Made by a program: the position numbers and the translations under genes. From positions 1 through 20,289 of IMG/VR virus record IMGVR_UViG_3300042731_005608: a stretch of DNA of 20,289 bases. One strand, written 5' to 3'. Shown here in pieces: positions 1,320-18,306 of this stretch. The notes beneath the pieces are model-generated. The model saw nothing but the letters and a program-made list of their open reading frames with translations, ran no database searches and was not told the origin of the DNA. How positions within the stretch are numbered: position 1 is the first letter of the stretch; each line of letters opens with the position of its first letter. This DNA comes from a virus.

Positions 1320-4300
1320 ATGGCAGTAAGCAACGACAAACCAGCATTGGCGGATTCGGATCACAACCTGTGGATGGAACGACCGGATCGCGTGGTGTGT
1401 GGCCTGTCGCTGAACGATGCAGACAGCGGCGACGCAAGTGATGGCGATTTGGTTAACGGTTGGGGTAGCCGTTATGATGACGGTGCGTGGGGCACAGACA
1501 AGCTCCGCCCCACCGTTTATACGGCTGGCGATGGGCCCACGTGGGTGACGGGCAGCGCCAACGAAGGCGGTGGTTTGTCTTTCGATATGTCGTCCGGCAA
1601 CGCCATCAAATTGTATGAAAGGGCTGGCGCTGATCAACCTATTCCTCGGGGCACGATAGTAATGCGGATGAAAATCAGCACAGCAGGATTGACTGGTGGT
1701 CCTATTCTTTGTTTGGGTGACGGTCAAAGCGGTCTCCGTCTTCGGATTCTTGGCTCTCCTAATATCAAAGTCACTAAGATGGTTGGTGGTGTTCCAACTA
1801 ATATATTGGAATCCCCCACGATAGTAGCTGATACGTTTTATACATTCATACTGTCGTGGGGGGAGGGCGGCATCAAGTTTTATGATGGCGCGACGTGGCA
1901 AACGGACAGTGATACGTTTGAGCCCAGTCTCAAGACTGGTTCGCTGAGTACGTTGTTTGCGATCTATAGTGGTGGGTGGCAAGCATTTTGTGATGGGACA
2001 CTGACCGCCTTCGCTTGGTATGAGTGGCAGTTGCGACAAGACCAGCTAGACGAGCTGGTTGTAGACCCGTATTTGTACATGCGACAAGATCCCGACGAAG
2101 ACTATTTTGAAGCGGCAAGCGGGCCGCTTATCTCCAGGACCAGTACGACCGGGACGACACTTAGCTTCACTACCGGCGCAAGCGTTGCAGACGATGCGGC
2201 ACACCGCGTATATGTGCGGTGTCTGTACAGCACGGATGCTCGGCTGGCTACGTATAGCACTTCATCGACGGCTGCGGGTACCACTGCGCTTGCGCGGCTC
2301 AACCTTACCCTATCGGGTCTCAGTGCTGGCACTACGTACTATGCAGTGACTCAATACAAGATAGGTGATAGTGGTACGTGGATCAACATGCCCGGCGGTA
2401 GGGTTGTGTTCAATACGTTTAGGGCAGCGGGTAGCAGCTTCAGGTTCGCTGTCTACAGCGATACACATTTCAAAGACAGCGGCATTGGTATGTCAGCAGC
2501 GCATACGCAATTCTTGGATTATGATGATGCAAGCAACTATGGTTTGTCTTGCATGTTCAGGGATATGCGCAAGCAATGCGAGGACGAGGATGTCGATTTC
2601 TTTTTGGCGCTAGGTGATAACGTAGCGTCAGCATCAGTGACTTCAGCAACGATACGCGATGATTATCAGCTATGGCGCCGCTTCTTTGGTTGCATCCACA
2701 AGCGCGCCACGCATTACCATGCAATTGGCAATTGGGAATTTACCGCTGGTTGGCGGCAATATAGCGGCTATCAGAAGATGCACCATGAGGAATGGCAGCG
2801 GTTTACGTGCAACCCGGACGACGAGGGCGGGAACAGCTATGGCGATTGGGTGCCGGCAGAGGGGTACGAAAACGACGATGGGGATACAGTAGATGCTACT
2901 TGGCTGGCTACTAAGATACACACCGGCAATCCTGAAAACTACTATGCCATTACGGATGGCGATGTCACGATATTTGTATTAGACCCCTTCCGCTATGCGC
3001 GTGTGGCCCAGCGTGACGCTGATTATGAAGTTCAGGCGCCTTACACGTTGGGCGACACACAATGGGCATGGCTGGAAGCGCAGTTGGCTGCGTGCACCAG
3101 CAAGTACATTATACTTGCTACCCACCACTTACCGGGTGGTTACAAGAGCAACTTTGGCGGCACACCTACTTGGTACGCCCGTGGTTTGTCAACGCATCTT
3201 GGCATGCAGCGTTTGCAACAGGTGAACTATAGCGAAACTGAACAAGAGATGGACGGTGCCGACCAGTTATCGGAGGCTGGTAGCCGCGGTATCAAAGACG
3301 AAATAAGGTTTTTGACGCTGGCCAAGAAGTATGGTGCTACTATCATAACAGCGCATAACCACCAGTTTGGCCATGGCGTATGTGTGGCTCCTTGGGACGG
3401 CGTCAACGTCATTTCCATACCGCAATACACAGACCGGTACAATTTCGATAACAGCGATGGTTATGGTACGCCCGCCTTGTTGGGCAGCGACAAGGCAAGC
3501 GAAGGCGTGGAGCAGGCAGACAAACTAGGTGGGTACGTCATATTCACTGTCACTGATTCGACATTGTCCATCGAGGTGCGTCGTGTGGTCGAGTGTTGCT
3601 CTACTAGCGATTACGAGGCACAAACAACGCCCGGTTTTGTGGGTGACCACGTCAGTGAGGAGATGGATACCGGCGGTGGTGGGACTACGCTGGCGCTAAG
3701 TGAAGTGCCAGACCATGTCTTCTGTGTTGGCACCCCGGACGCTTGCGACTTTGCTACGTATGGATCGCCAGCCATCGAAACTGACCTTGCTGGTGAGAAT
3801 TTGTATGACCCCACCCACCGCGACACGCAATTCACAGATGGATGGGGGTCTACCGCTTACGAGGAGCCCCACCAAAGCGCAACGATAACGCTATCGTCCG
3901 CAACGGGGGACACAGCTTGTGCGGATGCTGTGCCTTGCAGCAGCTACAGCGCTACGCTGACGATACCGGATAGGTATGCGCCGCGGCTAACACCATGGGC
4001 GGGCGGTGGCCGTTTGTTCAGCAGAGACGAAACCATAGCAGCCAAGCGGGACATCTGTGTCGCCATGCAGTTGGACAGCGATACGCCTACCCCGGCCATT
4101 GGTGTGGAACCTGTTGTGTCCATCTGCAAGGCCGGTGCTGGCACCTTCACGACCATTACAGGCAGTGTTGCCGAAGTGACCATTGCAGGCGAGGCCACAG
4201 GCACGTTTAGGATTAGTCTGGCTGCCGCCGATCTGGACACCGAAGGCGCTGCTATCTTGTATGTAGCGGCCCCTGGTGCGGCGACACAACTGATACCCAT

Positions 4301-4640
4301 AGAAGTGGTGTTGTTGCACGATGAAGTGCATAGCGCAAAGGCTACTGTCGAAGGCACTGATACCAAGGTGGATACGGTTGATGGCGTTGTAGACGCCATC
4401 AATGTAGTCACTGCTGCGCTGGCCAATGTAGATAGTACGGGCACAGAAGCCATTACAGCGGCCAAGGCCCTGGAAGTTATGTTAGCAGTGCTTGCCGGCA
4501 AAGCCAGCGTATCACAGGTGGACGGGACTACCAACCGGGTTTCGTTTATCGGCCGTGACGGCACCACTGTCTTAATGCAGGTAGATGTTTCTGCTAACAC
4601 GTCGGGTAGCCGGTTGGTATCTGAAGTAGATCCATCATAA
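1320..4640 (+). CDS. Large tail/fibre-type protein with lectin-like, Fn3-like and metallophosphoesterase domains
   Basis: 1106 residues, starting at ATG four bases after the previous stop. Residues about 20-250 look like a concanavalin/LamG-type beta-sandwich. Residues about 265-375 look like a fibronectin-III or purple-acid-phosphatase N-domain. From about 376 comes a calcineurin-like phosphoesterase: SDTH (D381, H383), GDN (D433), GNWE (N471), THH (H602/H603) and AHNH (H679, H681). The motif normally written GNHE/D has Trp472 in place of the usual His, so the usual proton donor is missing while most metal ligands remain. The section after about 780 is beta-rich, and the last ~75 residues repeat in the next gene. 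Likely role (inference): a virion-borne phosphodiesterase or phosphatase acting on a surface polymer, with the sandwich domain binding glycans. It could instead be a purely structural relic. Confidence 0.8.
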   Translation: MAVSNDKPALADSDHNLWMERPDRVVCGLSLNDADSGDASDGDLVNGWGSRYDDGAWGTDKLRPTVYTAGDGPTWVTGSANEGGGLSFDMSSGNAIKLYERAGADQPIPRGTIVMRMKISTAGLTGGPILCLGDGQSGLRLRILGSPNIKVTKMVGGVPTNILESPTIVADTFYTFILSWGEGGIKFYDGATWQTDSDTFEPSLKTGSLSTLFAIYSGGWQAFCDGTLTAFAWYEWQLRQDQLDELVVDPYLYMRQDPDEDYFEAASGPLISRTSTTGTTLSFTTGASVADDAAHRVYVRCLYSTDARLATYSTSSTAAGTTALARLNLTLSGLSAGTTYYAVTQYKIGDSGTWINMPGGRVVFNTFRAAGSSFRFAVYSDTHFKDSGIGMSAAHTQFLDYDDASNYGLSCMFRDMRKQCEDEDVDFFLALGDNVASASVTSATIRDDYQLWRRFFGCIHKRATHYHAIGNWEFTAGWRQYSGYQKMHHEEWQRFTCNPDDEGGNSYGDWVPAEGYENDDGDTVDATWLATKIHTGNPENYYAITDGDVTIFVLDPFRYARVAQRDADYEVQAPYTLGDTQWAWLEAQLAACTSKYIILATHHLPGGYKSNFGGTPTWYARGLSTHLGMQRLQQVNYSETEQEMDGADQLSEAGSRGIKDEIRFLTLAKKYGATIITAHNHQFGHGVCVAPWDGVNVISIPQYTDRYNFDNSDGYGTPALLGSDKASEGVEQADKLGGYVIFTVTDSTLSIEVRRVVECCSTSDYEAQTTPGFVGDHVSEEMDTGGGGTTLALSEVPDHVFCVGTPDACDFATYGSPAIETDLAGENLYDPTHRDTQFTDGWGSTAYEEPHQSATITLSSATGDTACADAVPCSSYSATLTIPDRYAPRLTPWAGGGRLFSRDETIAAKRDICVAMQLDSDTPTPAIGVEPVVSICKAGAGTFTTITGSVAEVTIAGEATGTFRISLAAADLDTEGAAILYVAAPGAATQLIPIEVVLLHDEVHSAKATVEGTDTKVDTVDGVVDAINVVTAALANVDSTGTEAITAAKALEVMLAVLAGKASVSQVDGTTNRVSFIGRDGTTVLMQVDVSANTSGSRLVSEVDPS

Positions 4641-5183: not shown

Positions 5184-5858
5184 ATGTGGCCTGATAACTA
5201 TTTCCCTGATTATGGTTGGCCAGTGCGGTACTGGTCGGTGCCGAATGACTGGGCTGCTGGCCAAACCAATGCCACGCGCACGCGCACGTTGCTACAACAG
5301 CGGTGGGCGGTCACGTTAATCAATGCAAGTGGTACGCGGTACGCTTTGGGGCGGTGCGACATAGACGACAGCGGGGGCGTCAGTGCCATCGTGGTGCCAG
5401 ACAGTGTGCCAAACGGCACTTACGATGTTGAAGTGCGTGCAAGTGGTTTGGCATGGGAGGGGCTGATACAAAAGACGTTTAGCACAGTAGTTATAGACCG
5501 CACTGGTAGTGAGCCTATCGAGACCGGGCTGCCTATACTGACTGGCTTGCGGTATGACTACTATGAAGGCTGGGTGCGGATTTTGTGGGAGGGTGACATA
5601 CCGCCAGTCAGTGCGGGTCTGGTCTCCGCCGGCCTCTGGCTTAGCGCAGGTGTGCCGAACTTTTCGGCATCACCTAGTGTCACCCTCCCACTATTCTCGC
5701 ACCAGTCTACACACTGTTACTTGTTGCGTGATGGCAGCTTTGCTACATACATTGGTTTGGCGGCCATTGATGGGGACGGCAACCAGGGCAGCGAGCAATA
5801 CATCGCCTTGCCCGACCTCACTCTCCTTTGTCCTCCAGCGGCGTTGGTCGAGGACTGA
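5184..5858 (+). CDS. Tail-type protein with Tyr/Phe/Pro/Trp-rich N-terminus
   Basis: 224 residues; ATG at 5184, one base after the previous stop, with AAAGG upstream as ribosome site. It begins MWPDNYFPDYGWPVRYW, an aromatic/proline motif of the YFP-x-x-YWP kind found in small phage tail proteins. Residues about 30-110 look Ig-like (AVTLINASGTRYALG, NGTYDVEVRASG) and the second half is another beta-rich domain. It is the last gene of the plus-strand block. Its 3' end overlaps the 3' end of the convergent thyX gene by 41 bases. No catalytic residues are recognised; the virion role is inferred from position and composition. Confidence 0.7.
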   Translation: MWPDNYFPDYGWPVRYWSVPNDWAAGQTNATRTRTLLQQRWAVTLINASGTRYALGRCDIDDSGGVSAIVVPDSVPNGTYDVEVRASGLAWEGLIQKTFSTVVIDRTGSEPIETGLPILTGLRYDYYEGWVRILWEGDIPPVSAGLVSAGLWLSAGVPNFSASPSVTLPLFSHQSTHCYLLRDGSFATYIGLAAIDGDGNQGSEQYIALPDLTLLCPPAALVED

Positions 5859-6591
5859 TGATGGTCTTGTCGCTGCCTATCCGGGCGGCCAAGTCACCAA
5901 AAACCGCCGGCAACCGTAGGGCAAATGCTGATAGGATATTCTGCATCAGATAACGTATCTGCCACTGGGCCCGCGGGTTTAGTGCCCGTTCTGTGAACAC
6001 GTGCCGCCACATGCGCAGGTTGAAGGTGACGGCTAGTTCGGTCTTAGTTGCGTTTGGCAGGACGCTGCGGGCGTCTTCTGGTGGTACCCCGCACCCGCGC
6101 AGGTAGTTGTACGTTTGATACGCTCCAGATACGCAATCCAGCCATTGGGTTAGCAAGTTACCGGGCACGACGTTGCTCTCAAACTGTCGCCAATGGCCAC
6201 TGATCTTGCGCCACAGGCCGCGGGCAGTTTTGCTGATGCTTGGTGGGCACACAGCTTGGAAGCCTAAGCTGCTGTAATCACAAAAACGCTGGCTTTCTTG
6301 GCTGTAGGCAGCAATGCGGTGGCGCACCAGTTGGTGACTGCAGGACCGGTCGCAAATGATACGTATGGTGATGGCAGCGTGCTCCAACACTGATAGGTGC
6401 TCCATGCCGATAAGCATTCGGATAAACCCGTCGGTGTCTTTGCCCAGCTTGGCTTCCGACTTGTGGCAAACGCGACCGCACCGCTCGGTAAGTGCGCGCC
6501 AAGTGTCAATGACTTGTGGCGGCGTTATGAATTCCCAATTGGGTGCTACCACATTGACAGTCTGCTCAGTCATTTTTTCCTGTTGGTCCAT
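5818..6591 (-). CDS. thyX: Flavin-dependent thymidylate synthase
   Basis: ThyX makes dTMP from dUMP using FAD, NADPH and methylene-tetrahydrofolate, leaving tetrahydrofolate rather than dihydrofolate. The family signature RHR-x7-S-x-R is present as RHRIAAYSQESQRF (about residues 90-103). The C-terminal helix region NLRMWRHVFTERA...AQWQIR fits the family's conserved Arg/His and Gln-x-x-x-Arg segment. I chose the ATG at 6591 (257 residues) because GAGGTG lies just upstream. Another ATG at 6573 also has AGGA before it, and a TTG at 6615 is open but less likely. The start overlaps the end of the Rad50 C-terminal gene. It is the last gene of the minus-strand block and should raise thymidylate supply for phage DNA synthesis. 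Confidence 0.93.
   Translation of the reverse strand: MDQQEKMTEQTVNVVAPNWEFITPPQVIDTWRALTERCGRVCHKSEAKLGKDTDGFIRMLIGMEHLSVLEHAAITIRIICDRSCSHQLVRHRIAAYSQESQRFCDYSSLGFQAVCPPSISKTARGLWRKISGHWRQFESNVVPGNLLTQWLDCVSGAYQTYNYLRGCGVPPEDARSVLPNATKTELAVTFNLRMWRHVFTERALNPRAQWQIRYLMQNILSAFALRLPAVFGDLAARIGSDKTIISPRPTPLEDKGE
5830..5855. other. Inverted repeat in the convergent gene overlap
   Basis: GTCCTC (5830-5835) and GAGGAC (5850-5855) form a perfect six-base inverted repeat with a 14-base loop, located exactly where the plus-strand tail genes and the minus-strand thyX overlap tail to tail. A stem here would form in transcripts from either strand, so it could help stop or pause converging transcription. 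There is no T-run after it on either strand, so it is not a standard intrinsic terminator. The repeat is short enough to be chance. Confidence 0.25.
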
Positions 6592-7186
6592 CGCACACCT
6601 CTGTGTTAAGGTCAATGGTCTTGCCTTGTACCAATTCCATTATGTTTGTCACAATGACAAACTGCACGCCCATCTTTTTTGACAGTTCGGCTACCAACGC
6701 GCGCACGCTTTGGCGGTACCGCGGGCTGGGGTTGCGGAAGGGTTCGTCCAGCACCAACACGCGGGCGAGTGGTGGTTTGACCAGCGCCAAGCACGACAGA
6801 CGTAACGCTAATGCTGCCAAGTCTACGGCACCGCCGGCCGCTTCGTCTTGTGGTTCCATGTAGTGCCCGCCGCGCACAAACCATAGTACGGCTTCTGTCT
6901 GCCCACGTTTGCGGACAAATTCAATGTGCAATGTGTAGGGGTTTTCAAAAACGCTGGCTAGGCATTGACTGGCTACGGTTGCGACACGTGCGTGTGCTTG
7001 CTGCTGCACTTCCTGTGCTATTTGTTGTGCAATATCATGGGCGGTGTTGGCCGTATTTTGTTGCGTTACGGCGTCGTTGTACTGCTGCCGTGCTGCCACA
7101 TAAGCATTGATAGCAGTCTGCGCTTGCAGTTCAAGGTTTGCAATACGTTCCCCCCACCGCGTCATTTGTGTTTGTATCTCACACAT
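6566..7186 (-). CDS. Rad50/SbcC C-terminal half (signature motif and Walker B)
   Basis: 206 residues. Residues about 10-75 are a Gln/Ala-rich coiled coil. Then come EAAGGAVDLAALALRL (about 115-130), which aligns with the ABC signature LSGGE-x4-ALALRLA, Walker B VLVLDE (143-148) followed by PFRNPSP, and a distal beta strand QFVIVTN. There is no Walker A: that is in the separate gene at 8325-9356. Together they would make one Rad50-type ATPase head. The signature reads AGGAV instead of SGGE, so the Ser and Glu positions differ. The ATG at 7186 overlaps the upstream coiled-coil gene by eight bases and has little Shine-Dalgarno, so translation is probably coupled. Partner: the SbcD-like nuclease at 7420-8346. 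Confidence 0.85.
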   Translation of the reverse strand: MCEIQTQMTRWGERIANLELQAQTAINAYVAARQQYNDAVTQQNTANTAHDIAQQIAQEVQQQAHARVATVASQCLASVFENPYTLHIEFVRKRGQTEAVLWFVRGGHYMEPQDEAAGGAVDLAALALRLSCLALVKPPLARVLVLDEPFRNPSPRYRQSVRALVAELSKKMGVQFVIVTNIMELVQGKTIDLNTEVCDGPTGKND

Positions 7187-7430
7187 TTAGTATGTCGCCG
7201 TATTCGCTTTCTATGTGGTGTATCTTGTCGCCTAGTTCGTCTTCCAGTCTGCTATCTTTTGCTCTTAGCTTGCGGGATAGCTTTTCGCCCTCTGCTTGCG
7301 TCTCGCAGCCAAACTCCTTGAGCCTTTCTAGCTTTGCTGCGCACACGCCTTCGGCTTTACTGACTTGCTGTTGTAGGTTGGCTGCCGCCTTTAGCAACCT
7401 GTTGAACTCAGCTATTACATCACGCGGCAT
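7179..7430 (-). CDS. Small coiled-coil protein between sbcD and the Rad50 C-terminal half
   Basis: 83 residues, almost all predicted helix with heptad-like spacing and many charged residues (EKLSRKLRAKDSRLEDEL). ATG at 7430 with GGAGG nine bases upstream; it overlaps the end of sbcD by 11 bases and the start of the Rad50 C-terminal gene by eight. It has no catalytic motif. From its position it may supply part of the Rad50 coiled-coil arm or tether the two halves; this is inference. It could also be an independent small helical protein. Confidence 0.75.
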   Translation of the reverse strand: MPRDVIAEFNRLLKAAANLQQQVSKAEGVCAAKLERLKEFGCETQAEGEKLSRKLRAKDSRLEDELGDKIHHIESEYGDILNV

Positions 7431-8346
7431 TTTCTATAGCCTCCAGCAGCACGCGACGCACACCATCGTGTACGTCGGTAGTGTCCAGATAACGGCGTAT
7501 TGCGCCACAGTAGTCTAGCGGGTTGTGTGTTAGATTTCCTAGCGTCGAAAGGAACTCGCCAACGTCTACTGACGTATCGAGCGAATCAGGCGCAGCCAAC
7601 TTGTCGAACCTGTCTTTGCTTGTGTCCAGGTAGTGCGGGGCTATGCTGCCATCGGATAGTAGCAGCCCTAAACGCGGTTTGTAGTCGGCTTCGACAGCAA
7701 GGCGCCGCATTAACGTGCCACAGTTCCATATAGTTGTGTTGCCGAGCTGGTATTCGAAGCCGTGGTGGTTGTCGCCAAACGCAACTATATGGAATGCGGT
7801 TAGTGCCTTGCGTCGTTTGGTGATTTTTGCTGCGGGTGTGGCCCCGCCATGCCCACACCCGGCTATCCAGTTATATTCGTGAGCAATGGCCACACGGTAG
7901 GCGCCTTTGGCGCCCGGTGGCGCTTTGTAAGCGCGGGCAACGGGTGTGCCGTATGCGTGGCCGGTAAACATGAAGTTCTTGAGGTGCAACGGCTTTGTTG
8001 GACTTAGTTGTGTGATTGTCTTGGCGCGGCATAGTGTGGCAAAGGCACTGCGGTGCATTTCTGACATAGCGTGTTGCGGCATGTCGTGCTGGCCGGGGAT
8101 TGCATACATGTGCGGTAGGTTGTCTACTGCCCAATTGATGAGTTCTGGTATTGCTGCGTAGCTATTGAAGATGTCTCCAGCGCAAAAAACAGGGACGTTG
8201 TGTTGTTCGGCCAAGTCGCGCAACTGGTTTACTATGCGCTCCATGGCTGCGTACCAATTAGGCTCACCAGCACGGCATGGCGGGGGCGTGTGGCTGAGGT
8301 GTATGTCTGCACACAGTATGGCTATTATTTCATTACGTTGCCGCAT
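7420..8346 (-). CDS. sbcD: SbcD/Mre11-type DNA exonuclease (metallophosphoesterase)
   Basis: 308 residues. The five phosphoesterase motifs are visible in order: ADIHLS (D-x-H), GDIFN, GQHD (where most family members have GNHD), AHEY and GDNHHG (the G-x-H-H type end motif). This is the nuclease subunit that, with a Rad50/SbcC ATPase, processes DNA ends and hairpins. The start at 8346 is supported by GAGGTG six bases upstream; an ATG at 8367 is also open. The ribosome site and start codon lie inside the zinc-hook codons of the upstream Rad50 half-gene, giving a 22-base overlap. A capping-domain tail follows the catalytic core (residues about 225-308). Confidence 0.92.
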   Translation of the reverse strand: MRQRNEIIAILCADIHLSHTPPPCRAGEPNWYAAMERIVNQLRDLAEQHNVPVFCAGDIFNSYAAIPELINWAVDNLPHMYAIPGQHDMPQHAMSEMHRSAFATLCRAKTITQLSPTKPLHLKNFMFTGHAYGTPVARAYKAPPGAKGAYRVAIAHEYNWIAGCGHGGATPAAKITKRRKALTAFHIVAFGDNHHGFEYQLGNTTIWNCGTLMRRLAVEADYKPRLGLLLSDGSIAPHYLDTSKDRFDKLAAPDSLDTSVDVGEFLSTLGNLTHNPLDYCGAIRRYLDTTDVHDGVRRVLLEAIENAA

Positions 8347-9356
8347 AATGGGCACCTCTTGCCGCACGACGTGCGTAGCTTATCCAGCGCAGCGAGTGTT
8401 TCAGCTAGTAGTGTCTTTTTTTCACTTAGTTGCTGCATGCTGTCGGACACGCCGTCTAAGATGATAGCAAGTTCATTGTGTTGTCTGCGCGTCTTTTGCA
8501 GCCTGTCCGCCAAGGCTTGCAGGCCGCTTAGGTCGGGCACTGGTTGGTTGGCCTCTGCGGTGCTTTTTGCAAGGTCCGATAGGACTTCGTCCAGCTCCCT
8601 GCGTTGTTTGGCCACTTTGGCCGCCCGCCGGGCCACTACAAGGGCCGTCTCGCACGCGCTCGCGGCTGCTGCTGCGTTTTTCACCCGCTTTTGGGCCTCT
8701 GATACCCCCTCAAGGCAGTCTCGTAGCTGTCTGGCCGTTTCTCGCGTTTTTCCCAATGCAGCGGCTAGCCCCTTGGCTTCCTTGTATCTAGCTGCCAGCT
8801 TGGGCACATAGGCATAGGACCGTCTGGCTTTCCTAGCTTCTTCGAGGTCACATGCCCGTTCCTCAGCCACAACACGCGCCCGTTTGGCGTTGGACTGCAA
8901 CGCGGACAGGACTGTGTCGATGGCTCGTAGGTCCACAATGGCGTTCAGTTGTCTTGCGACTTCACCCGGCGTGCTGCTAAACCAGAACGGCCCTTCGTGT
9001 TGCCATTGGAAATTGACATTGTCTAGGCGCAGCGCTGCTTGGATGGGTTCAGGTACGTTGCGGCCAAACGCCTTGTACGGCTGCCCGTCCAGTTTGTACA
9101 CGTGCCCGTGCGGTCCGTAACTTCGCTGGATGACTGTGCCGTCAGTCAGCACCAGCTTTACCGACACTGACTTGGCGCCGTGGCGCAAGAACCGGTTGCC
9201 GGCTGGTTTGTTGAGACATACCCAACGCAGGGCGCGCAGGATGGTGCTTTTGCCTTTGTCGCTGTCCCCGATAATGCTGGTGATGTGTTTATCGAATACA
9301 ACGCGCAGGTTGCCATGCTTTTGGAAGTTGCGTAGGTGTAGGCTGGCAAAAAACAT
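8325..9356 (-). CDS. Rad50/SbcC N-terminal half (Walker A, coiled coil, zinc hook)
   Basis: 343 residues. It starts FFASLHLRNFQKHGN, the usual SbcC/Rad50 first strands, with Walker A GDSDKGKST at 30-38, then a coiled coil over about 150-325, ending in the zinc-hook motif CPLC (Cys335 and Cys338) just five residues before the stop. A full SbcC would continue down a second coil to Walker B; here that part is a separate gene at 6566-7186. The ATG at 9356 is preferred over the GTG at 9359 because AGG lies eight bases upstream; it overlaps the stop of the previous gene (TGATG). Role: ATPase and DNA-tethering subunit of an SbcCD-like complex in end processing and recombination. Confidence 0.9.
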   Translation of the reverse strand: MFFASLHLRNFQKHGNLRVVFDKHITSIIGDSDKGKSTILRALRWVCLNKPAGNRFLRHGAKSVSVKLVLTDGTVIQRSYGPHGHVYKLDGQPYKAFGRNVPEPIQAALRLDNVNFQWQHEGPFWFSSTPGEVARQLNAIVDLRAIDTVLSALQSNAKRARVVAEERACDLEEARKARRSYAYVPKLAARYKEAKGLAAALGKTRETARQLRDCLEGVSEAQKRVKNAAAAASACETALVVARRAAKVAKQRRELDEVLSDLAKSTAEANQPVPDLSGLQALADRLQKTRRQHNELAIILDGVSDSMQQLSEKKTLLAETLAALDKLRTSCGKRCPLCGNVMK

Positions 9357-9565
9357 CACTTGTGCCTAAACTCGCTCCAGATTATATTGTTGTCCTCGTC
9401 AAACAGCAGCACAGCCCATGGCTCGTCGGTACTATTGAATCGGTCTACTGCTATTTCTACGGCACGTCTTTCATGCACGTGCCGTGTTGGTGTGTAGGCT
9501 ATCTTGCCTAGTTCCTTCACGATGACACCCAACCGGTAGTATTGTGGCCCGTCTATCTTACTCAT
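9356..9565 (-). CDS. Small protein of unknown function
   Basis: 69 residues; ATG at 9565 with GGAG six bases upstream, overlapping the preceding nuclease gene by eight bases and the Rad50 half-gene start by one. Sequence features: a mixed alpha/beta pattern (YYRLGVIVKELGKIAY, then ERRAVEIAVDRFNS, then WAVLLFDEDNNIIW), compatible with a small single domain. No Cys or His cluster, membrane segment or catalytic motif. Tight packing between two recombination genes supports it being real. The function is not recognised. Confidence 0.65.
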   Translation of the reverse strand: MSKIDGPQYYRLGVIVKELGKIAYTPTRHVHERRAVEIAVDRFNSTDEPWAVLLFDEDNNIIWSEFRHK

Positions 9566-10121
9566 CAGGCACTCCCGCAGCTACATCCTTTACCACGTGT
9601 GGCAACACATAATGCATCCACATATCAAACCGCATTTGTATGAAGTGTGGTCCTTTGTGTGCGTGGTATACGGCATAGTTGGCAAATCGCGTAGCCCGTC
9701 TCACAAATTGTACGTCCAACGGGATTGTTATCAGGGCGTGCTTTGCATCGCATTTTGATATGATCGCCCACGACATGCTGCCGCTGTTCCTACAATCCCT
9801 TTCTGCTTTGTCTATCCAGTTTAGGAGCTTGGGTCTTGTTTTTGTGTGTTGCGTATGCAGTACGTCAGTCAGCGTAGCAGTTGGGTGTCCGCGTTTGATT
9901 TCGATAGTGAATACATCTAACAACGGTTGGCCTATTGGGTCTGTGGCTTGCACGTCGCCATATTGACCAAACGTTCGTTGTCCCCGTCGGTTACGTTGGG
10001 TTGCGCGGCCGCCACTGCCGGCAGTGCGCCAGAACACGTCGTCCCGCTTACCACCAGTCCACCACACGCTGAGCTGTTTGCAGACAGCCCGCTCGTACTT
10101 ACCGCCTTTGTTTCTCGCCAT
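9558..10121 (-). CDS. PD-(D/E)XK-type nuclease, probable Holliday-junction resolvase
   Basis: 187 residues. The N-terminus NKGGKYERAVCKQLSVWW carries an early Glu on a helix, followed by FWRTAGSGGRAT, then YGDVQATD (the Asp strand) and TIEIKRG (the E-x-K pair, with Lys positioned on the next strand). This order is that of PD-(D/E)XK enzymes such as archaeal-type resolvases and phage junction nucleases. Likely role: cutting branched DNA from recombination before packaging. The start overlaps the end of the MazG-like gene by 23 bases with a weak AGG site, so translation is probably coupled. It could instead be a restriction-type endonuclease, but the neighbours favour recombination. Confidence 0.75.
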   Translation of the reverse strand: MARNKGGKYERAVCKQLSVWWTGGKRDDVFWRTAGSGGRATQRNRRGQRTFGQYGDVQATDPIGQPLLDVFTIEIKRGHPTATLTDVLHTQHTKTRPKLLNWIDKAERDCRNSGSMSWAIISKCDAKHALITIPLDVQFVRRATRFANYAVYHAHKGPHFIQMRFDMWMHYVLPHVVKDVAAGVPDE

Positions 10122-14808: not shown

Positions 14809-15713
14809 ACACAAACCTCGTAGGCTGCCATCGCCAGCCCGGCGGCACCGGTGTTGAATGTCGTGTCTCTGAAACTATCGAGTATGCAAAAAGCCCGCGG
14901 GGCATTGCGGTTGGCTAACAAGGCATTACGCGCACACGCTAATAGCAACCGCCGTACCCTTTCGGGATCTTCATCTATGCCGCGGAGGACGCTAGCTACC
15001 GCTGCCCACTTGGTTTTTGGCACCATAAGCACCTTGAAAAGCTCGATGGCTTGTTTGTTTGCAGTGGGTTGTTCAATTGCGGCAAGTTGCGCTTCCTTGT
15101 CTTGTATGTTGCGCACGGCATCCAGTATGACGAGTGCTAGCCTTGCCGAGCCTTCTGCCGCTGCGACGATAGCCTCGACTACTTCGTCATCCAGTTCGAC
15201 ATGTTCGCGAGCGGCCACACTTTCGACCACATGCGACAAGTCGGTTTCGGATAGCAGCTTGTAGACAAGCTGTGTGCAGCGTGTGTGTATGGTGCGGATG
15301 ATTTTTTGTGGGTCTGTGGTTATGAGTATGAAGTACACATGCGCAGGTGTGTCTTCCAGCAACTTCAGCAAGGCGTTTTGCGCTGCTGTGCTTAGTTGGT
15401 GCGCTTCATCAATGACCCATATCTTGCTGCCCCCTACTGGGGCCAAAGACATTGTAGCCCTGATGTCGCGTACTGTATCAATGCCAGTGAAATCGGCACA
15501 GTTTATCTCCCTGTAATCCATATTATGACAGCGCAACGCTACTTGCAGTATCCGCGCTGTTGTCGTTTTACCGGTGCCGCTCGGACCAGAGAGCAACAAG
15601 GCATGCGGGCATTGGTGTTTGGCTAACAACTTCCCCAATGTTGTGGTGGCTGTTTGCTGACCGCGCAACCTAGGCAGTGCTTGCGGTCTGTGCTTTTTGT
15701 ACAGTTCACTCAT
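14796..15713 (-). CDS. DnaX-like clamp-loader AAA+ ATPase
   Basis: 305 residues. N-terminus LYKKHRPQALPRLRGQ as in DnaX/RFC proteins, Walker A GPSGTGKTT (43-51), Walker B WVIDEAH, LLKLLEDTPAHVYFILITT (sensor 1 strand), and a TRC segment as in the family's SRC arginine-finger motif. The usual Cys4 zinc module of bacterial DnaX between Walker A and B is absent, as in RFC and some phage loaders. Role: opens the sliding clamp and loads it on primed DNA. The ATG at 15713 overlaps the polymerase stop (ATGA), with AAGGAG 11 bases upstream. No delta or delta-prime partner is visible, so it may form a homo-oligomer or use others outside the window. Confidence 0.9.
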   Translation of the reverse strand: MSELYKKHRPQALPRLRGQQTATTTLGKLLAKHQCPHALLLSGPSGTGKTTTARILQVALRCHNMDYREINCADFTGIDTVRDIRATMSLAPVGGSKIWVIDEAHQLSTAAQNALLKLLEDTPAHVYFILITTDPQKIIRTIHTRCTQLVYKLLSETDLSHVVESVAAREHVELDDEVVEAIVAAAEGSARLALVILDAVRNIQDKEAQLAAIEQPTANKQAIELFKVLMVPKTKWAAVASVLRGIDEDPERVRRLLLACARNALLANRNAPRAFCILDSFRDTTFNTGAAGLAMAAYEVCVGTQ

Positions 15714-17104
15714 GGCTTGTATTTCTCCTTATTGTGCCAGCTAGCACCAAGCGGTGACACCTCTGGCTTCATGACAAGTGGTACGATGATCCAACGCCAC
15801 ACATGTGGCAGCATACGGCACATGATCTTATTTGCTTGGTGTATGACAAGGTGCAATTCGTCTTTGTGTATGTACAATAGCAGACTGTCGTGAATTTGCC
15901 CCACAATACGTGAGCGCATGTTGTTTTCCCGCAACCAACGGTGTAGTTGTATCAACGACCATAGCAGGCAATGGAATGCCGGACCTTGTATGCAGTAGTT
16001 AATCACGTCGTTGCGGGCGTACAGGCCTTCGACACGGAAGCCTGTAAGCATGTCGAACCACCCGCGGCGCAAGTATTGTTGCCACCATTCTTCCTTCCAT
16101 GCGTGGTAGACTGCAAAACGCTTGTGCCAGAAGTCATGTTCGACGGTTTGTATGTGGTATTCGAAGGTGCCCGGTTTTGCATCCTGATCGCGCGCACAAA
16201 CACCTAGCGTGTGCATGCCTTGTGCAGCTAAGTGCGCTGCCATGGGAGTGCCGTCAGCCAGTGATAGGTTGAGCGTGTTTATGTTTTCCCACAAGTGGCG
16301 GGCGCATGTCTTGTACCAGTCACCGTAGAATTGTGCGAAAACGAAGTTGCTTTTAGCGCTGTATCTTGTCGGGTCTGTTACTTGGCTTGCTGCACATTGG
16401 TATATTTCACATGCCATGTCACGATGCATGTCACTGTCGGGGTTGCGGCAGTATTCGATGAGCTTTGGGTCATGGTGGTTACAAGCACTGATGCGCACTT
16501 CAATTGACCCGTAGTCTAGCTCTGCAAAATGGAAGCCATCGGGCGCAATGAATAGTGGACGTATTAGTTCTGCTACCCATGGTATTCGCACAGGCATGTT
16601 TTGCACGTTGGGGCTATCGCTGCTGCTGCGGTAGCTACGGGCTAGGTGTAAGCTGAAGAATGGGTGAATGTATTCGTTGACAACAGCACGTTGTATGCCT
16701 AGCAAGTACGTCTTGTATGTCTTTTGTAGGCTTTCCAAGCGTGTGTACCGGCGTATGAATGGGTGGTCTAGTTTGCCTATCGTTGCTGCATCGGCTTTAT
16801 ACCGCCCACTGCGGGTACGTGCATCACCAGGGCAGGCAAAGCCCATGTGATCAAACAGCACAGTGCCTAGTTGCTGACGGCTGCGTAGTTTCGCCTTGTG
16901 TCCATATACCCGCACCCACGTTTTCCATACATCAGTTTCCTTCAGTTGATCTTGCACGGCCTCGATGCGTTCCTTAGTGTCTACAATGGTGGCAGCTAGC
17001 TTGTTGGTGTCTATGCGCAGACCGGCCGCTTCGATATCAGACAGTGCGCGCCAACCATCGTGGAAAAGGCGCAACGCATCGAGTCTAGTTGCTGTTATTG
17101 ACAT
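15710..17104 (-). CDS. Family A DNA polymerase, polymerase domain only
   Basis: 464 residues, covering only the Pol I palm, fingers and thumb. Motif A is ELDYGSIEVR (D197); motif B is R247, K251, then FAQFYG (Y260-G261); motif C is GQIHDS (D406), where cellular enzymes have QVHDE. The K-to-YG spacing is nine rather than the eight of E. coli Pol I. Exonuclease and 5' nuclease domains are absent: the first is in the preceding gene, the second in the gene at 10505-11386. The start ATG at 17104 overlaps the previous stop by ten bases and has no visible ribosome site, so translation likely depends on re-initiation. Role: main phage replicative polymerase, presumably tethered by the clamp encoded upstream. 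Confidence 0.93.
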   Translation of the reverse strand: MSITATRLDALRLFHDGWRALSDIEAAGLRIDTNKLAATIVDTKERIEAVQDQLKETDVWKTWVRVYGHKAKLRSRQQLGTVLFDHMGFACPGDARTRSGRYKADAATIGKLDHPFIRRYTRLESLQKTYKTYLLGIQRAVVNEYIHPFFSLHLARSYRSSSDSPNVQNMPVRIPWVAELIRPLFIAPDGFHFAELDYGSIEVRISACNHHDPKLIEYCRNPDSDMHRDMACEIYQCAASQVTDPTRYSAKSNFVFAQFYGDWYKTCARHLWENINTLNLSLADGTPMAAHLAAQGMHTLGVCARDQDAKPGTFEYHIQTVEHDFWHKRFAVYHAWKEEWWQQYLRRGWFDMLTGFRVEGLYARNDVINYCIQGPAFHCLLWSLIQLHRWLRENNMRSRIVGQIHDSLLLYIHKDELHLVIHQANKIMCRMLPHVWRWIIVPLVMKPEVSPLGASWHNKEKYKP

Positions 17105-18306
17105 TGCGCAAGTACGGTTTCAAAATCTTGTGCTTGCAGCGCGGCAAGTAGCCACGTACACGCACTATCTAAGCCGTTATACATCAGCAAGTCCTGCAAG
17201 TGCAGTTCCATTATCCTATTCAGCCCGTGCCTGTCGGCTTCCAAGTATGGCTTAACATGCTTGCTGTAGTCGGGCACGCCAAGCCGCACAAGTGATTGGA
17301 ACTTTAAGCCAGTTATGCCTTGCCTATTATCTAGTATGTGCGCGGCTACCATTGTGCACCACGCCCACCTGCGCACATGTGTAGCGTGTACGGCCGACCA
17401 CCGGTCTTCGAACTTGGCGTTCGCTGCTACCTTAGCGCACCTCCGGCTGTGTAGCAGCTTACAAGTTTCATCTATGGCTGCGCCTGCCCATGGGTATGCT
17501 ATGTGGTCGTATCCGTTGGATATTGAACAACAGACTATGCGCGCCCCTGGTGTCTCAGGCTTTAAGCAATTGGTCTCGTAATCGAACGCCACCCACCCAC
17601 CGGCCAAGCGCACGCGCCGTATGAGCTTTGCTGCTACACTGGGGCGTGTTTCGCACCGTATGTGTTTGTGCAAGTTGTGGGGCACGCGCCCACTCATTGG
17701 CATGCATGACAAGTGGATGGCTTTTTCTAAGTGCCTTTCAAACAGTGCATCCAGCGCTTTGTTCTCCTCCCGCATGACATAGCTGGGGTGGTAGGTCGGC
17801 ACCACCCACGTGCGTAACGGCGACAACGGTATGTCCCACCCAACCCATGGTTTTATCGCATCCCCTACTTCGTGGTAGTTACCAAGCACGCTTTCAACTG
17901 CCGGGCGCCCTAGCAGTATGATTACACTTGGGTTGCATTGTGCTATCGTGTCGAAGACTAGCGGTCTGCAATAGGCTATTTGTTCACTTGTTGGGGTGGC
18001 GTTGTTGGGTGGGCGGCATGCTAGTGCGTTTGTGCGAAAGCAGTCTTCATCTAAGTCAATATGCAGGTTGGACAACGGGCGGCGCAGGCGGCGCCCGGCC
18101 GGTCCTACAAACTGCGTACCTTCCATATCTTCTTGTTTGCCCGGTGCTTCACCTATGACCAGTATGCGGCGCTTACCATTGCCGCTGTAAGGCATGGCTG
18201 GGCTGTTACATCCCTTGCGCAGCCCACACATGCCGCACAACGGTGCGCGCAGCTTGGCGGGGTCTGCAACCTGTCGCACCAAGTTGGTTGGCAGTAAACC
18301 ACCCAT
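17095..18306 (-). CDS. Uracil-DNA glycosylase fused to DNA polymerase 3'-5' exonuclease
   Basis: 403 residues with two domains. N-terminal (1-200): family 4-type UDG with GEAPGKQED (52-60), GTQFVGPAG (63-71), NALACRPPN, and YHPSY (172-176); Cys24, Cys27, Cys97 and Cys113 fit the four 4Fe-4S ligands. C-terminal (230-403): DnaQ-like proofreading exonuclease, Exo I DYE (D242, E244), Exo II NAKFED (N296, E300/D301) and Exo III Y376-x3-D380. The UDG family was once annotated as 'SPO1 DNA polymerase-related' because that phage polymerase carries such a domain; here UDG-exo is cut from the polymerase, the next gene. Start at 18306 with strong GGAGGAG. Function: excise uracil and proofread at the fork. 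Confidence 0.9.
   Translation of the reverse strand: MGGLLPTNLVRQVADPAKLRAPLCGMCGLRKGCNSPAMPYSGNGKRRILVIGEAPGKQEDMEGTQFVGPAGRRLRRPLSNLHIDLDEDCFRTNALACRPPNNATPTSEQIAYCRPLVFDTIAQCNPSVIILLGRPAVESVLGNYHEVGDAIKPWVGWDIPLSPLRTWVVPTYHPSYVMREENKALDALFERHLEKAIHLSCMPMSGRVPHNLHKHIRCETRPSVAAKLIRRVRLAGGWVAFDYETNCLKPETPGARIVCCSISNGYDHIAYPWAGAAIDETCKLLHSRRCAKVAANAKFEDRWSAVHATHVRRWAWCTMVAAHILDNRQGITGLKFQSLVRLGVPDYSKHVKPYLEADRHGLNRIMELHLQDLLMYNGLDSACTWLLAALQAQDFETVLAQCQ

Follow-up and report, generated by a model that had tools for sequence, protein, structure and literature searches.

The arm and hook of Rad50 are held to be formed by a single polypeptide folding back on itself at its apex, and the locus described here raises the question of what a Rad50 cut at that very point might be. 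The window analysed, the complete IMG/VR virus record IMGVR_UViG_3300042731_005608 (20,289 bases), represents a phage genome known from this 20-kb fragment, and carries on its minus strand four consecutive frames overlapping end to start, which encode an N-terminal half of Rad50/SbcC (N), an SbcD/Mre11-like nuclease (D), a small coiled-coil protein (S) and a C-terminal half (C). Conservation, structure prediction and inter-gene covariation argue that these genes very probably specify a phage Mre11-Rad50 (SbcCD-type) complex for DNA-end processing whose Rad50 is assembled from three chains. The features concerned are as follows, with model confidence given as the predicted local distance difference test (pLDDT) of AlphaFold2 (AF2).

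8325 to 9356, minus strand: N-half of Rad50/SbcC (AAA_23, E = 5e-13; profile match to Rad50 3aux, 2e-19; AF2 pLDDT 89)
8343 to 8354, minus strand: CPLC codons of the zinc hook, read from the sequence, five codons upstream of the N-half stop
7420 to 8346, minus strand: SbcD/Mre11-like nuclease (Metallophos, E = 2e-5; Mre11 4hd0, 4e-12)
7179 to 7430, minus strand: S, the putative third subunit of 83 amino acids (AF2 pLDDT 95.7; helices 2–38 and 45–81)
6566 to 7186, minus strand: C-half of Rad50/SbcC (Rad50 C-terminal chains 3qkr_B, 2e-10, 1ii8_B, 1e-9, and 1f2t_B, 3e-8; phrog_15167, 1e-16)

An initial annotation, made from the sequence alone, had described the N-terminal gene as carrying a Walker A motif, one coil and a CPLC hook followed five residues later by a stop, and each of these elements was found in its place. 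The Walker A motif reads GDSDKGKS (codons 9269–9246), and in the homologue alignment residues G31, G36, K37 and Q120 (N is numbered from an in-frame GTG at 9359) are invariant, identifying an N-terminal ATP-binding cassette (ABC) lobe that contains both Walker A and the Q-loop. The AF2 model matches the N-lobes of Rad50 and SMC proteins in Foldseek, PHROGs links the protein to phrog_16465 ('exonuclease'), and a scan of IMG/VR with the single N sequence gave no match. Beyond the lobe the model predicts helices 145–181, 185–270 and 278–331, the hook following the last of these, and the gene ends TGC CCA TTA TGC GGC AAC GTA ATG AAA TAA (CPLCGNVMK, stop). Both hook cysteines are invariant in all 79 aligned homologues; across a broader set of 201 N proteins a CxxC motif is present in 199, and in 193 it lies no more than 25 residues from the C-terminus (median 6).

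The nuclease and the small coiled-coil gene do lie between the halves with overlapping frames, as first described. The nuclease ATG (8346–8344) is formed within the hook codons for L-C, 8 nt downstream of a Shine-Dalgarno-like AAGAGG, while the S start lies inside the 3' end of the nuclease gene and is preceded by GGAGG. The nuclease, numbered here from a GTG at 8367 from which the open reading frame (ORF) is readable, matches Mre11 structures by profile (4hd0, 4e-12), placing it in a calcineurin-like fold related to Mre11. Its conserved residues and motifs comprise D21, H23, D65, GQHD, H163 and GDNH, and at about 310 amino acids it is shorter than a typical SbcD. For the C-terminal gene the first description held in part. 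A coil (approximately residues 1–60) and a Walker B motif (LVLDEPF, codons about 6766–6743, with D147 and E148 invariant in the family) are present, and a signature exists by position (codons about 6838–6821, aligning to the signature of Rad50), but it is divergent: the canonical LSGG is absent, the window having AGG and about 90% of the family GGG. The thyX ORF (5818–6615, minus strand) shares some 50 bases with the 3' end of the C-half, so that the operon apparently continues into thyX. Pfam returned no convincing match for S or C, and a scan of bacterial genomes with C found none; the best Protein Data Bank matches of the C profile are separately deposited Rad50 C-terminal chains, and PHROGs links C to phrog_15167 ('ATPase'). 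The matches of both halves include the Pyrococcus furiosus Rad50 crystals (1f2t, 1ii8, 3qkr), in which separate N and C chains form one ATPase head, as is proposed for the phage proteins, although that two-chain protein is a laboratory design and not a natural one, and lacks the hook arm.

Is the split then a functional arrangement, or is it a broken gene? Scans of IMG/VR yielded 341 loci, reduced to 207 non-redundant ones, and 172 of these contain all four genes complete, S included. The genes always share a single strand, in the order N-D-S-C at 169 loci, N-S-C-D at two and N-S-D-C at one, so that the same split with a C-terminal hook, for which a search of other phages had been suggested, is widespread and recurs far more consistently than chance would allow; no ORF in the 207 loci fuses any two of the four genes. 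For the one usefully close pair, the ratio of non-synonymous to synonymous substitution (dN/dS) is 0.07 for N, 0.17 for D, 0.16 for S and 0.13 for C. Twelve relatives each have a single Rad50-type N-lobe above the cut-off and a single clear C-lobe, and these include two complete genomes of cultured phages (NC_048735.1 and PP438412.1) with no other SbcC. The conserved loci, the low dN/dS and the sole lobes in these relatives thus point to a fixed split module, in agreement with the initial view of a kept arrangement. That an SbcC gene is decaying here, or was broken by metagenome assembly, deserves almost no credence: the record is a 20-kb metagenomic one and its signature and switch residues are degenerate, but an identical split occurs at the 172 loci and in the two complete genomes and is found dispersed in a third cultured phage, so that conservation already refutes this explanation, and no fused close relative was found. 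Two findings named in advance as fatal to the split were an erroneous base that would fuse the frames and a complete SbcC elsewhere in the genome. The former is excluded, since a conserved nuclease gene of about 1 kb separates the halves and no single-base change could join N to C; a frameshift or readthrough linking the two was likewise rejected on account of this complete intervening gene. As to the latter, no second one was seen above the cut-off in the 12 relatives, whereas the window is only a 20-kb fragment and the rest of its genome may hold another SbcC.

A search of 50,697 annotated phages brought up very few relatives, all of them distant. The cultured Microcystis phage Mvi-JY20 has the order of the window (N, nuclease, small coil, C), and in the cultured Bacillus phage vB_BboS-125 the nuclease comes last, behind N, an AP2 gene, the small coil and C. 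The AP2-domain gene immediately behind N in the latter (L002:6416-6988) bears on a different origin of the split, namely a recent fission by a homing endonuclease that preserved function and created nothing structurally new. Such fissions have precedents in Aeh1 nrdA, phage 25 gene 43 and T4 gene 60 (PMC2988022), whose pieces, like those proposed here, reassemble into an active enzyme; moreover, an HNH/NUMOD-like sequence, recognized by eye, is fused right behind the hook in one locus (L178:3230-4822). The HNH/NUMOD and AP2 sequences beside the hook are possible traces of gene splitting. However, no endonuclease lies between the halves in the window or in most other loci, the split is old and common to very divergent lineages, and neither S nor the stepwise growth of the arm described below is accounted for, so that a homing event might explain the origin of the module but is quite improbable as an explanation of its present form. 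The known split enzymes are also sporadic and tied to mobile elements, in contrast to the present module, which is fixed and widespread, has gained a subunit and carries the gene of a partner between its halves. No earlier report of a split Rad50/SbcC was found in the open-access literature.

Whether the pieces assemble was addressed by covariation. The four proteins were paired per locus (172 loci), and mean-field direct couplings were compared with permutations that re-paired the loci. Between N140–205 and C1–80 the top pair, N196–C12, scored 10.5 against a null maximum of 6.6 (60 permutations), and the pairs N150–C53, N192–C12, N189–C19, N171–C32, N154–C53 and N142–C64 fall on antiparallel diagonals with position sums of 203–208, the best diagonal scoring 5.48 against a null of 1.74. 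Charge swaps accompany this pattern, N196–C12 being E-R in 107 loci with exchanges to K-E, R-E and K-D, and N189–C19 changing from E-K to K-E; the diagonal was also reproduced in two clades analysed separately. As read from these sequences, the pattern indicates a predicted antiparallel coil of N142–196 with C64–12. In the lobes, couplings N34–C117 and N33–C154 link Walker A with the signature and the D-loop, contacts that in ABC dimers fall between subunits, while N22–C177 is probably a coupling within the sheet. The nuclease is coupled to both chains (D293–C52, D307–C53 and D303–C48 with C; D310/311–N150 and D306/307–N154 with N), and its C-terminal helices therefore appear, on covariation, to dock on the base of the N-C coil. 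The Rad50-binding domain of Mre11 sits at the corresponding base of the Rad50 coil (PMC7260605).

These couplings bear directly on whether N and C belong together at all. It might be imagined that N and the nuclease form a hook-linked tether and that C acts as an independent ATPase, and in the cultured Microbacterium phage Magritte (OR553905.1; loci L004, L116 and L345) all four components are indeed present but scattered across the genome (N as gp155 at 93.8 kb, D as gp228, S as gp245, and C as gp2 at the left end). Yet each half lacks essential ABC motifs that the other possesses, other lobes are absent from the 12 relatives, and the antiparallel covariation with its charge swaps is specific to N and C, leaving separate complexes barely credible.

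Assembly of the two chains, which the initial annotation had foreseen, is accordingly supported by the inter-gene covariation. The second part of that idea, one whole functional arm restored at the apex where a normal chain turns back, fared differently, as C spans only about 55 residues of the arm and the distal, hook-bearing part belongs to N alone and changes in steps without S or C. The distal arm of N falls into four length classes, of 103–113 residues (30 loci), 139–162 (132), 186–205 (7) and 232–262 (3), across which S (83, 83, 82 and 84 residues) and the C coil (57, 57, 58 and 64) are constant. The classes are scattered on the tree, parsimony requiring 19 changes, and for the commonest class at least eight are forced by supported branches. 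Internal repeats of about 47 residues occur in the hook arm (e.g., L092, L096, L099, L114), the repeat in the window being 41. An antiparallel coil of N with C or with S reaching the hook would need matched length changes, and the distal arm is therefore paired otherwise, the candidate partners of N being a second N chain, the same chain folded upon itself, or several copies of S. By this reasoning a restored canonical arm, in which C and S together form a return strand that matches N position by position as far as the hook, is unlikely. In its favour, the genes N..S-C follow the order of the chain, and the lengths come close to agreement among the short-arm loci (about 145 for N against about 142 for S and the C coil together); against it stand the many switches in distal N over a constant S and C coil, the prediction of S as two 37-residue helices with covarying ends, and the absence of covariation between C and distal N, the negative control of distal N against the C coil giving nothing above the null at the 172 loci.

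For S, the two 37-residue helices are predicted by AF2 with a pLDDT of 95.7, the strongest internal couplings (37–48 and 9–73) are compatible with a hairpin, and Foldseek found no match for the model. A straight return strand formed by S was rejected on the length test and on this two-helix prediction. Couplings of S with N follow two trends, one with sums of 258–266 (N185–S73, N201–S63, N205–S61) and one with differences of 175–186 (N185–S9, N196–S13, N212–S37, N219–S33), and those with C have sums of 25–29 (C19–S6, C20–S9, C12–S13, C8–S21). In the one arrangement that these couplings fit, the hairpin probably has its open end at the end of the C coil and its body running up the second helix of N. 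A more speculative extension, on balance doubtful, is a modular arm in which an N spine of one to four repeats of about 41–47 residues is clad by successive S hairpins. Such three-helix segments would, should this tentative picture hold, set the arm apart from those of all known Rad50 and SMC proteins, and phages would tune arm length through N repeats, leaving the other chains unchanged. Covariation bearing on several S copies along the N repeats was computed per length class, on small sets (36 and 42 sequences).

In the three-chain Rad50 that we favour, N would supply the first ATPase lobe and a long hook-bearing arm, and C the other lobe together with a short coil lying antiparallel to the first ~55 residues of that arm, restoring the ABC head. 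Two such N-C heads would close on ATP, Walker A facing the signature and D-loop of the other subunit as the covariation suggests, and a nuclease dimer would bind the base of the N-C coils through C-terminal helices, in the manner of Mre11. The S hairpin would follow N further up, beside the last part of the C coil and beyond it, and stiffen the lower-middle arm, while the distal arm and zinc hook would be formed by N alone, with hooks pairing via zinc at the tip. By analogy with T4 gp46/gp47, the complex may process the ends of phage DNA during recombination and replication. Homology, conservation and inter-gene covariation support the head, the proximal coil and the docking of the nuclease, whereas this role, the stoichiometry of the chains, the binding of zinc and the ATP-dependent and nuclease activities are inferred.

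Several observations weigh against this model or temper it. The signature serine is replaced by Gly or Ala, the switch histidine by Asn in the window (Asn or Asp once its nearest relatives are included), and the D-loop aspartate by Ser in the window and nearest relatives (mostly Ser or Gly across the family), so that ATPase behaviour and hydrolysis may differ. Nearly all nucleases of the family have GQHD for GNHD and GDNH for GHxH, an exception being that of locus L002 (GNHD/GHDH), and their metal site, judged from the motifs, may be different from that of Mre11. Couplings involving S barely exceed the null, and their geometry was interpreted post hoc. The N protein of Magritte is without CxxC, and the hook is thus not universal among the relatives. 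Finally, permutation of rows ignores phylogeny, so that the absolute significance of the couplings is overstated; what carries the argument is their geometry, together with the charge swaps, the recurrence in two clades and the negative control.

How does such a complex compare with known systems? With the Mre11-Rad50/SbcCD complexes (E. coli SbcCD and the archaeal proteins) it shares an ABC head of N- and C-lobes, a coil, a CxxC hook and an Mre11-type partner that probably docks at the coil base, and by its sequence features the phage complex would be one that works like them. Three usual features, namely a single chain, the LSGG signature and the GNHD/GHxH nuclease motifs, are missing here: Rad50 is one chain in those systems and three chains in the phage, with the hook on a free C-terminus, a GGG/AGG signature, an extra protein S, divergent nuclease motifs and a distal arm length set by N. 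T4 gp46/gp47 is also a phage Rad50/Mre11 pair and serves recombination-dependent replication (PMC3175470), but its gp46 is one chain where the present protein is split. Non-canonical viral architecture is known as well from Mimivirus R555 and Bacillus phage 0305phi8-36, which encode Mre11-Rad50 fusions (PMC3175470); there, the partners are fused, the opposite of the Rad50 split seen here.

Hundreds of phages, then, break the Rad50 chain at its apex, which leaves the hook at a loose terminus, and bring in a third protein. With head, proximal coil, distal arm and hook residing in pieces that vary separately, the module is an experiment of nature on how the components of Rad50 fit together, and the effects of hook, arm length and arm pairing upon the head become directly testable. 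It also very likely identifies the DNA-end-processing complex in a large assemblage of uncultured phages; in their cultured relatives these genes are annotated merely as hypothetical protein, exonuclease or ATPase.

The neighbouring genes in the window, thyX and those for a PDDEXK nuclease, a 5'-3' exonuclease, PolA, a uracil-DNA glycosylase, a UvsX-like protein and a clamp loader, are compatible with a replication and recombination module. The PDDEXK nuclease gene (9558–10121, minus strand) lies just upstream of the operon, and in locus L007 a PDDEXK-like gene is also found upstream of N (2032–2667). On the plus strand, 1320–4640 encodes a long structural-looking protein with a putative calcineurin-like phosphoesterase domain, recognized by eye. 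DNA polymerase I is also split in the window (15710–17104 and 17095–18306, minus strand), the polymerase-domain gene overlapping by 10 bases the preceding gene, in which uracil-DNA glycosylase is fused to a 3'-5' exonuclease domain; the polymerase ORFs of relatives are only 473–549 amino acids long, and that of Mvi-JY20 is 1128.

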